From: Dipodascopsis uninucleata var. uninucleata
Lineage: Eukaryota; Ascomycota; Lipomycetes; Lipomycetales; Lipomycetaceae
Assembly (NCBI GenBank): GCA_030568195.1
Contig: JAJLTO010000005.1
Coordinates: 682,001 to 746,000 of the forward strand
Reading direction: 5' to 3'
Length of the DNA: 64,000 nt
Shown here: positions 9,871 through 14,104 of the stretch, piece after piece
Layout of the letters: each line of letters opens with the position of its first letter
How positions within the stretch are numbered: the stretch's first letter is position 1
Notes under the pieces: model-generated
What the model was told of the DNA's origin: nothing
The model's input: only the letters and a program-made list of their open reading frames with translations
Databases searched by the model: none
Program-made: the position numbers and the translations under genes

Positions 9871-11535
9871 ATGGGTAAGAACACAGACAAGCTCTTCATT
9901 ACACACTCAGAATGGATAAGTGAAGACGGTCACGGTGGCTCTAAAGGAATCTCCACCCGCAAGCGCGAGATTGATCTGGCGAAGAGAAAGCTTCCTTTTA
10001 CTCACTGTGCGCTCAGCTTACAACCTTTTCAGTCTGCTATTTGTGATCGAGACGGAAATGTGTTCGATAGGATGTAAGTTTCATATTTTGCTATATTTAG
10101 TACAAAGTTTCGCTAATAGTTTTGAATGATCGATAGGCAAATTGCAAGTTGGTTGAAAAAGCATGAGAAGAATCCGGTGACTGGACAGCCGTTGCATGAA
10201 AGTGACCTTATCCCACTTCATTTTCACAAAAACGAGGATGGCGAATATATAGATCCAGTTTCATACAAGGTGTTCACAAAAAACACAAAGATCGTAGCAT
10301 TGGATAATACCGGAAATGTGTTTTCGTATGATACGATTGAGAATTTAAATATCAAAGCCCGCTATTGGCAAGACCTAATCACAAGCGATAAGTTCTCGAA
10401 GTCCAACATTATAGTACTTCAGGTAAGCGAATATAAATCTTTAACACGACTTGAGCGAGTAAATAGCTTACAAATTATCAATAGGATCCTCATGCCATAA
10501 TTAAAAGCTCGAAGCCGGAGGAAGGTATGTTTGGTATTAAAACTTTAGGTCTTATCATGCACTCACAGTCGTTCGTGATTAGCTATTGCAAATTCAAATG
10601 GAAATTCTGTGGTATCAAAAAGGCTTTTGGACACGGCAGATGATGAGCGAATCAGAACAAAGAAGCAAGAGCTATCTGCTTTTAGGTCAGCTAGTACAAA
10701 CGGTAGAGCAGCAGCATCTCTCACCTCCACAGCAGTTAATCCTTACACTAAAGCAGAGCGATCGATTCTTTCCGACGAAGAACTTATTTTCAAGTCTAAA
10801 AAGAATCTAGAAAAAGGATTCGTTCAGATGAGAACCAATATTGGCGATATAGACATCGAACTAGAAACGAAATTGGCTCCTCGCGCTGTTTACAATTTTA
10901 TTAAGTTGGCGCAGAAAGGCTATTATACTGGTGTCTCCTTTCACAGAAACGTAAAAAACTTCATGGTAAGTTTGTCAAAGTATCTAATATATAGTTTCAC
11001 GTATGTACTAATAAGCTGTGAATATGTCGATAAGATACAAGGTGGCGATCCCACAGGAACTGGAAGAGGTGGTGAGAGTATATGGGGTGAACCATTCATA
11101 GATGAGTTTGATTCACCTCTATCTCACAACGCCAGAGGTATACTTTCTATGGCTAATAGAGGAAAAAATACTAATACAAGTCAGTTCTTCATAACATACC
11201 GTGCAGTTCAACAGCTTGATAGAAAACATACTATATTTGGCAAAGTCGTTAAAGGATTGAACACATTAGACAAAATGGAGCGTTCTCTCACTGACAGCAA
11301 CGATCGTCCCAAAGCAGATATTACAATCAGAAGTATTCTTGTCGTTATAGATCCTTTTGAAGAGTTCCTCAAGAAAATAAAAGCAGACGAAGAGGAGAAT
11401 CATTCAACATCAAATAAAGACAAGGAGAAAAAACTTAACGACGATAACATTACTTGGTCTGGTCGAGTTCTAGCAAACAACGACCACGCTAACGCCAAGC
11501 CGTCCATCAGAAAGATAGGGAAATACTTAAAATGA
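9871..11535 (+). CDS. CYP8: U-box cyclophilin (PPIL2/Cyp60/CYP8 type), five exons
   Basis: Exons: 9871-10073, 10137-10422, 10485-10524, 10583-10965 and 11035-11535, 470 residues. The protein joins an N-terminal U-box (FTHCALSLQPFQSAICDRDGNVFDRM, residues ~40-110) to a cyclophilin peptidyl-prolyl isomerase domain (~258-420; [39 protein letters not shown]). PPIL2 orthologues are nuclear, combine E3-ligase and isomerase folds, and are spliceosome-associated. The linker TGNVFSYDTIENLNIKA is conserved. Introns are 63, 62, 58 and 69 nt. The last one is a multiple of three without an in-frame stop, so retention would insert 23 residues inside the isomerase core. The symbol is the usual fungal one; family assignment is firm. 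Confidence 0.92.
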
Positions 11536-11756: not shown

Positions 11757-12626
11757 TTAAGCGGCGCCAGCTGCAACGAGCAAAGGTTTCAATTCACCCC
11801 TCTGCTTCAGAGCCTGCAAATCCGAGTTGCCTAAGCAGATAGAAGCAAATGTTAGTAGACTGGCTTGTAGAATATAGAGAAGCAGATATATATACACATA
11901 CCACCAACGAACTTTCCACCAATGAAAATGGCTGGAACGGTCCTCTGACCAGTAATTTCATAAATTGCGTTTTGAATTGCAGATCCGCCGTCTATTAATT
12001 GATTAGTAAGTGCCTCTTGGAGATAGACACGAGAAAATGAATTTCAAATGACTCTGCATCTGCACCATAGCTTGTACTTACCAACTTCATCAAGTTCAAT
12101 ATCAGTATGTTTGACACCCTCTGCATCTAGAGTAGCCTTGGCGTGCTTGCAGTATCTTCGTTTTGTTAGTAAGCACGAGTAGAGAAGAGAACTTTAACGG
12201 CAGATGCAAATCGGTTTTGATTTGCTGCTAACCTGCAGAATAACCATTATGCAAATATTCTACTTACGGACAGTATCTAGAAAGCCATATTGTCAGTAAA
12301 AAGATAATAATTCTTTATTTTGATTGTTTTACTGTCGTTGCTTCAATCCTCCATTGCGTACAAGGACTGATAAGGACCGACGAGCACACTACCAGAAATA
12401 TTAATCTCAAGGCCTCGCATGTAATTCATGGCCTTATTTCTAAAAATTTCAAAATAAATACATACGATTTGCTGAACACCATAACGGTGTTGCTCTCAAC
12501 GAGAGACTTCACTTCTTCTTGATACTTTGACATTGTTCGGATAGATCGAATATCTGCTAGTCGAGGTAAAGAAACAGTTGACCGTCCTCTATTCAAAACA
12601 CTTTTGGCTACGTTATACAACAACAT
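11757..12626 (-). CDS. GRX2: Dithiol glutaredoxin (Grx1/Grx2 type), five exons with a 9-nt micro-exon
   Basis: Exons: 12626-12466, 12276-12268, 12155-12082, 11991-11902 and 11830-11757, 135 residues. Glutaredoxins reduce disulfides and glutathionylated proteins using glutathione. The active site C56-P-Y-C59 follows VMVFSKSY. TVPAIFIGGKFVGG supplies the cis-proline and glycine pair that bind glutathione. The tyrosine and cysteine before CPYC's proline come from the 9-nt exon 2, whose flanking introns are 189 and 112 nt. The first 31 residues are arginine-rich and acid-poor, and Met32 starts the normal cytosolic form. That matches S. cerevisiae Grx2, made as mitochondrial and cytosolic forms from two starts. 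All exon phases agree. The symbol follows that resemblance and could be GRX1. Confidence 0.9.
12268..12276 (-). other. 9-nt micro-exon (ATACTGTCC) of the glutaredoxin gene
   Basis: On the minus strand the 9 nt lie between TTCTAG and GTAAGTAG. They encode most of Tyr-Cys-Pro of the active site and keep frame (phase 2 to phase 2). The next exon begins with the same six bases, ATACTG. Confidence 0.82.
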
Positions 12627-12995: not shown

Positions 12996-14104
12996 TCAAT
13001 AAGAGACGTATCGCGCAAGGGAAGTTACAAAAGATTTTTGGGCTTGCTCGCTTGCAGCTTGTGGAGCAGTAATGTAGTGAAGCAGAAGCGCGGTAGTGAC
13101 TGACTTGTCTTCAACGGATCCTAAAAATTCTGCGGGATCGCCAGGCTTGCTGTAATAATCGCAGCAGAGTGTAGATGCGGTGTTTGTAGAAAGTCTTAAC
13201 TCGCCATTTTTAGGAACCACTCGCTTGCGCGAAAAAACTGTGCGCAGCTGTGCAATGCCTTCGTTTAGATCAACGTCTTCGTTCTTTGACTTAGCCATAA
13301 TAGATCTGATAAATCCGTCGCGCAAGTGCCCAAAGTCCGTGTTTCGAACAGGCACAATACGTAAAGAAAATCTGACACCATCATCAAGCATTCTCCGAAA
13401 CAATTTCTTCCCCATTACGGGATCGGTCAACATAGTTTCTAAGTCAGAATCATTTTCTGGAATTTCCTTAATGCAGGTCCTGACCTTGGCCAGGTCATCC
13501 TCAGCAATATATATACCAACTAGATAGCAAACGAAGTATAATGGTCAGTAAAATTTTCTTGCCTTTTAAAACCAATATTTGAAGCCTGCTCACTACACTC
13601 AGCAGAGCACGGAATGTCGTGTGGTAGTTTAGTGCTATGAGAGTTAATCTGCAATACTGTTGTACGTAATAGAATCTTACCTGCATAGACGTTTATTCTC
13701 AGGAACGAAACCGTTCTCATTCCAAGACCAAAAAGTGAGAACGGTGATCCAGCTACACTAATACGATACGGAAATGGATCAATTGACTTATCAATTCGCC
13801 TCGCGTCATCTGTGAAATTGTCTTTAGCTGGAGATTCGACAGGTGCCTCGAGCTTAACTTTTGGCTGCGTTGATACATTTGCTACATTGAATATGCATAT
13901 TGATACTACACCAATAAGCAATGTTCTAGTGATTGACGAATTTAGGAAATATCTATTAGCATTTGCTGAGTTGCTGCTAAATTCTCGCCGGAAGCTGTTA
14001 GAGAAGCCATGACCCCTGGAGGATATTCCACGCAAACTATTCGTCAGTGGTCGCGCAAAGTGCGAGGAGCATCGATTAATCTTATTCATACTAAAGATCT
14101 TCAA
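12996..14104 (-). CDS. AIM18: Aim18/Aim46-type mitochondrial chalcone-isomerase-fold protein, two exons
   Basis: Exons: 14104-13681 and 13519-12996, 315 residues. The N-terminus is rich in Arg/Ser/Asn with no acids for about 40 residues (presequence). A hydrophobic segment (RTLLIGVVSICIFNVA, ~60-75) follows, and the C-terminal ~200 residues carry the chalcone-isomerase-like core: FSLFGLGMRTVSFLRINVYA-VGIYIA, VRFSLRIVPVRNTDFGHLRDGFIRSI and AEFLGSVEDKSVTTALLLHYI. In S. cerevisiae Aim18 and Aim46 are inner-membrane heme-binding proteins of this fold without isomerase activity. The 161-nt intron (donor GTAAGA, acceptor TCTAG) falls between VYA and VGIYIA. Met6 is an alternative start. It is divergent from the MDR transporter. 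Confidence 0.88.

Follow-up and report, generated by a model that had tools for sequence, protein, structure and literature searches.

A nine-base micro-exon predicted at the catalytic site of a CPYC-type glutaredoxin gene of Dipodascopsis uninucleata

The glutaredoxin gene and its neighbourhood

The window (the whole 64,000-nt stretch of Dipodascopsis uninucleata DNA that was analysed) carries a glutaredoxin gene on the minus strand, which runs from position 12626 down to 11757 according to its spliced translation. The gene consists of five coding exons of 161, 9, 74, 90 and 74 nt, the last including the stop codon, separated by four introns that measure 189, 112, 90 and 71 nt and carry the donors GTATGT, GTAAGT, GTAAGT and GTATGT and the branch-like elements TACTGAC, TACTAAC, TACTAAT and TACTAAC, respectively. 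An earlier note on this DNA had placed a 9-nt exon at 12268..12276, with introns of 189 and 112 nt on either side; these coordinates are right, and the TTCTAG and GTAAGT flanks and the ATACTG at the start of both this exon and the next one are seen directly in the sequence. The features are as follows.

12466..12626, minus strand: coding exon 1, ending ...TTC AGC AAA TC/ (spliced translation, homologue alignment)
12277..12465, minus strand: intron 1, 189 nt, phase 2, GTATGT ... TACTGAC (12298-12292) ... TTCTAG (sequence)
12268..12276, minus strand: putative micro-exon ATACTGTCC, 9 nt (resampling control and homologue C-x-x-C)
12156..12267, minus strand: intron 2, 112 nt, phase 2, GTAAGT ... 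TACTAAC (12171-12165) ... ACGAAG (sequence)
12082..12155, minus strand: coding exon 3, starting ATACTGCAAG, with the second active-site Cys and the Lys (translation, homologue alignment)
11992..12081, minus strand: intron 3, 90 nt, phase 1, GTAAGT ... TACTAAT ... TAG (sequence)
11902..11991, minus strand: coding exon 4, with TVP and GG motifs (PF00462 match, locus L005; homologue alignment)
11831..11901, minus strand: intron 4, 71 nt, phase 1, GTATGT ... TACTAAC ... TAG (sequence)
11757..11830, minus strand: coding exon 5 with the stop codon (spliced translation)

Through the split codons TC/A and CC/A the micro-exon provides Y-C-P of the C-P-Y-C active site, so that the spliced translation bears out the claim that half of the site lies on it. 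The frame stays intact both with and without these bases: inclusion of ATACTGTCC gives the product ...FSKSYCPYCKHAK... with the site S-Y-C-P-Y-C-K, while skipping gives ...FSKSYCKHAK... with the site S-Y-C-K, as the earlier note had proposed. The mRNA string containing the micro-exon is ATACTGTCCATACTGC, and the strings diagnostic in reads are AAATCATACTGTCCATACTGC for inclusion and AAATCATACTGCAAGC for skipping. The TVP and GG motifs of exon 4 presumably belong to the glutathione site.

Exon 1 contains two in-frame starts, ATG 12626-12624 and ATG 12533-12531 (MSKYQ...), from which the spliced product with the micro-exon measures 135 and 104 aa, respectively. The upstream ATG (12533-12626, minus strand) adds a basic, presequence-like N terminus, and N-terminal extensions are present also in the aligned Lipomyces starkeyi protein P0003 and in P0008. 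The two starts suggest dual mitochondrial and cytosolic forms; in yeast, the mitochondrial and cytosolic forms of Grx2 arise from two starts. The gene is convergent with a cyclophilin-type isomerase open frame (10609-11535, plus strand) across a gap of about 220 bases, and is adjoined by a chalcone isomerase-like gene, apparently split into the open frames 12996-13433 and 13520-14104 (minus strand), the second of which matched its family with 22.4 bits, under the cutoff of 27.

The active site in the family, in the genome and against chance

The homologue search returned 1126 proteins, and all but one of the 120 listed had a C-x-x-C site (114 CPYC, 3 CPHC, 1 CPFC and 1 CQYC); the sole exception was the D. 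uninucleata protein P0001. The eight named relatives from the Lipomycetaceae that were aligned (P0002-P0007, P0009 and P0010) all had C-P-Y-C. Since the family keeps this motif, the nine bases supply exactly what it conserves. Dipodascopsis tothii was not among the names of the 120 listed homologues, many of which are entries without a name, nor among those of the 12 proteins which a search with the C-terminal 76 residues gave at E 1e-12 or better, six of them in the first list.

The profile scores differed between the two translations. The included form reached 105.1 bits with TIGR02180 (GRX_euk), above the cutoff of 87.25, while the skipped form stayed below it with 83.0 bits; with PF00462 both forms (72.3 and 51.0 bits) were above the cutoff of 22.9. 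The mark of class I dithiol glutaredoxins, C-P-Y-C at the start of helix 2, is present with the micro-exon and absent when it is skipped. The gene is thus of the CPYC type (class I), and its product is a predicted dithiol enzyme.

The PF00462 profile search of the genome gave four matches: L002 and L003 are of the CGFS type, L004 is of the CPHS type and L005 is exon 4 of the gene described here. The whole protein, searched against the genome at E up to 10, had no match other than this gene and the L004 place. It is, therefore, the only CPYC gene found by searches that work exon by exon and could miss a finely split active site. The L004 paralogue, which we take to be Grx6/7-like, has a short exon at its own active site (L004:1397-1421 on contig C8, 25 nt, flanked by introns of 104 and 78 nt); an intron splits the catalytic Cys codon as TG/T, a TTTTAAG acceptor is required to restore the active-site motif, and skipping of the 25-nt exon would shift the frame. 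A genome-wide search for short exons with the pattern TACTAAC N2-25 AG N3-30 GTAAGT produced 21 matches against 31 in the reversed control, i.e., no enrichment, with a pattern too strict to find the 9-nt micro-exon itself, whose branch-like element is TACTGAC. One TACTAAC..CAG..GTAAGT string (locus L010, C3:1066905-1066953, minus strand) delimits a short candidate exon, which, judged by eye, could encode a P-loop-like stretch.

The micro-exon has the usual attributes of its kind, being internal, shorter than about 30 nt and bounded by consensus flanks (9 nt between TTCTAG and GTAAGT). The end of intron 1 is 16 nt away from the branch A of its TACTGAC, a less common form than TACTAAC. The 21-nt string TTCTAGATACTGTCCGTAAGT (12262-12282, minus strand) had a single match in the window with up to three mismatches permitted, as did one of 100 shuffles, and matched the 16.2-Mb genome exactly at one place. 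That the nine bases are intronic and match the motif by luck is barely credible. Short strings do match by luck, and in first-order Markov resampling of the 310-nt interval between exons 1 and 3, based on its own dinucleotide transitions, any S-x-C-x-x-C-K was reached in 564 of 20,000 resamples; the specificity of the chance test therefore rests on the requirement for Y/W-C-P. With that requirement, the 9-nt cassette AG/N(TAY or TGG)TGY CC/GT arose in only 8 of 200,000 resamples (in one with a GTRAG donor), and family conservation demands exactly these residues. The real interval holds 27 in-frame AG..GT cassettes of 3-90 nt, nine of them free of stops, and C-P-Y-C is restored by two of these nine: the 9-nt exon and a 45-nt version (12312..12268) which has the same donor and would insert 12 extra residues. 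The preferred reading is that the micro-exon is a genuine coding exon at the catalytic site and, most likely, a constitutive one. An exon of nine bases completing a catalytic centre is, in our judgement, very small for a relative of the budding yeasts.

The ATACTG at the start of both the micro-exon and exon 3 had been taken earlier as a sign of local duplication or of selection that keeps the register. A duplication is not required to explain it: introns 1 and 2 are dissimilar (local score 16, while 300 shuffles averaged 15.95, p 0.57; p 0.17-0.80 for the other five intron pairs of the gene), and the motif itself yields such a repeat in about 17% of cases. Because S-Y-C-P-Y-C repeats Y-C every three residues, phase-2 introns placed there would lie 9 nt apart and each be followed by N-TAY-TG. 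Given this motif and the codon use of 61 long open frames of the genome, the chance of the same N-TAY-TG hexamer at both places is 0.175 and that of exactly ATACTG twice is 0.008. An old duplication is possible.

The public protein record and the splicing of the two introns

The best homologue match, P0001 (NCBI, D. uninucleata, class Lipomycetes), is a protein of 101 aa which starts at the second ATG and is identical, letter for letter, to the skipped form. It evidently represents the same gene, and it lacks C-x-x-C because the nine-base exon was omitted; the earlier expectation that such an exon is easily missed in annotation thus held for this very gene. That these nine bases are missing is most likely due to an error in annotation. 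Exons of this length are below the size that gene finders usually model. In plants, according to the portion consulted of a survey, micro-exons of 15 nt or less are frequently missed by annotation, at times giving skipped models (PMC8831610).

P0001 presumably derives from the project on D. uninucleata strain Phaff 50-6 (PRJNA1069695; PMC11024372), for which, as stated in the portion of that report consulted, Illumina RNA was sequenced and transcripts were assembled before annotation with the JGI pipeline (PMC11024372). Since RNA was sequenced, real reads could lie behind the skipped public model. The first six bases of the micro-exon and of exon 3 are identical, however, so that reads extending up to six bases beyond exon 1 fit the skipping junction perfectly, and only those reaching at least 7 nt beyond its end distinguish inclusion from skipping. 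The repeated ATACTG would thereby draw short-read aligners to a false skipping junction, a trap that may be set wherever a micro-exon and the next exon start with the same bases.

The micro-exon would remain after the removal of two ordinary phase-2 introns placed 9 nt apart within the active-site codons. Each of them (189 and 112 nt) would be recognised across the intron, i.e., by intron definition, a mode implied for ascomycetes by the mostly small size of their introns (PMC6616335, in part). Two spliceosomes would hardly fit on nine bases together, so the introns are probably removed in sequence; the first removal, of whichever intron, would join the nine bases to a normal exon, after which their small size would be no obstacle. 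In human cells the exon junction complex represses donors just beyond a fresh junction (PMC6224609, in part), an effect which, if alike here, would favour removal of intron 2 first. The mature mRNA would then encode C-P-Y-C and a normal dithiol enzyme. It is highly probable that two such intron-defined reactions bring the nine bases into mature mRNA and that the public record errs in leaving them out. The analysis shows the gene structure, the intact frame, how rarely chance gives such a cassette, the conservation of the motif in the family and the skipped form of the public protein; that inclusion is constitutive, that the introns leave in sequence and why the annotation went wrong are what we infer.

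The splice elements themselves appear unexceptional. The intron 2 acceptor AAG fits the fungal acceptor consensus HAG, and TACTGAC of intron 1 fits the branch consensus DYURAY, as both are given in part of PMC7138796. An ab initio intron finder with a capped length range, applied to 264 kb (the window plus 20 stretches, each of 10 kb), kept 39 of 160 candidates, a noisy set whose acceptors were TAG (17), AAG (10), CAG (6) and GAG (6); with AAG in 10 of the 39 and in the L004 paralogue, this acceptor looks ordinary in the genome. The branch-site statistics, based on the first AG that follows TACTAAC where a donor lies upstream, comprised only 22 sites. Two special arrangements were ruled out: a stwintron, as both introns have complete separate elements with 9 coding bases between them, and a recursive-splicing exon, as the exon starts with ATACTG and not with GT.

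The public record also bears on two readings in which skipping is real. In the first, the micro-exon has decayed and most or all splicing in this species skips it, with loss of the dithiol site. This is very unlikely: the public skipped model is the one observation in its favour, while the splice sites and branch-like sites are intact, as are the exact Y-C-P codons, and the genome would be left with no CPYC glutaredoxin found by exon-wise searches.

The second is a regulated switch, in which skipping depends on conditions and gives a one-cysteine protein, three residues shorter, with altered or no dithiol activity. The exon length is a multiple of three, so the frame is kept on skipping, but this follows from the repeated Y-C of the motif and alone is no sign of regulation. 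The public record is the skipped form and probably comes from an RNA-seq project; the other 119 listed homologues all keep C-x-x-C. Fungal precedents exist in the 20-nt micro-exon of Trichoderma virens Xlr2, included in a glucose-dependent way (PMC11121469), in the 15-nt exon of Aspergillus niger rtnA, which is retained or skipped (PMC6616335), and in Lipomyces starkeyi, which can excise a complex intron of 252 nt either at once or in two steps (PMC7138796), each as described in part of the source; Xlr2, however, is not a case of simple skipping, with no reads joining exons 1 and 3 in the portion of the report at hand (PMC11121469). The skipped form still passes PF00462 and has a confident AlphaFold2 model, but it falls under the TIGR02180 cutoff, and the model confidence says nothing on stability or activity. 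Taken together, a regulated switch is unlikely.

The skipped product would, moreover, not be a clean dithiol-to-one-cysteine exchange. The in-frame one-cysteine site of the earlier proposal stands, but helix 2 also loses three residues at its start: the skipped form keeps K-S-Y-C, with the remaining Cys at the position of the first cysteine and the lost residues readable as P-Y-C. In the AlphaFold2 model of the intact Lipomyces oligophaga protein helix 2 spans residues 26-37 (mean pLDDT 95.3), and in that of the skipped D. uninucleata form 27-34 (mean pLDDT 95.2, a confidence not equal to stability or activity). The skipped product is thus predicted to be a three-residue deletion at the helix 2 start rather than a CGFS-type monothiol enzyme. 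Assignment to that type (class II), for which the definition in part of PMC7138851 names a C-G-F-S site and, ahead of the cysteine, a longer loop, was rejected: the site reads K-S-Y-C-K with no CGFS, the loop before the Cys is unchanged, and the TIGR00365 score was 30.4 bits against a cutoff of 117.1.

An active short form is conceivable because other glutaredoxins, ScGrx8 excepted, can largely do without the second cysteine when they act on glutathionylated substrates, and because the CPYC proline blocks iron-sulfur binding (PMC7138851, in part). By analogy, the short form, if real, might deglutathionylate substrates with its single cysteine, bind iron-sulfur clusters or be a competitor without activity, and skipping, if true, would amount to a simple redox switch at the level of splicing. 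It is distinctly improbable that the splicing of nine bases makes the one CPYC glutaredoxin found alternate between a dithiol enzyme and a first-Cys-only variant without P-Y-C, in a ratio set by stress. Constitutive inclusion of the micro-exon is the reading kept below.

Comparison with known systems

The literature matches for glutaredoxin and micro-exons, judged by titles and the beginnings of abstracts, were unrelated papers; those listed for glutaredoxin, CPYC and exon skipping contained no exon skipping; and among those listed for yeast micro-exons, a Yarrowia-clade lipase paper, in the portion consulted, only names an aligner option.

The included form resembles yeast Grx1 and Grx2 (CPYC class I) in C-P-Y-C, TVP and GG and passes the TIGR02180 and PF00462 cutoffs; the best PDB sequence matches were glutaredoxins of the CPYC type, including Grx2 and Grx1. 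What sets the D. uninucleata gene apart from class I dithiol glutaredoxins is that its active-site codons are split by two introns around a 9-nt exon.

The following comparisons draw on parts of the cited papers. In T. virens Xlr2, as in the D. uninucleata glutaredoxin gene, a short internal ascomycete exon codes for part of a functional site, and Xlr2 was likewise first annotated without the domain that its micro-exon completes (PMC11121469). It differs in that its exon is 20 nt long, not a multiple of three and glucose-dependent by RNA-seq, while that of D. uninucleata is 9 nt long, frame-neutral and predicted from sequence (PMC11121469). The 15-nt exon II of A. niger rtnA and the Lipomyces reticulon gene are further cases of a tiny exon or a complex intron in ascomycetes (PMC6616335, PMC7138796); the latter belongs to the same yeast family as D. 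uninucleata, and its complex introns can be removed consecutively or in one step (PMC7138796). Both rest on stwintrons, in which one intron is nested in a splice element of another, in contrast to the complete and separate introns of D. uninucleata (PMC6616335, PMC7138796). Plant micro-exons of up to 15 nt are similarly absent from reference models, leaving the protein a few residues short; they are backed by RNA-seq, whereas the D. uninucleata exon is predicted from its DNA (PMC8831610).
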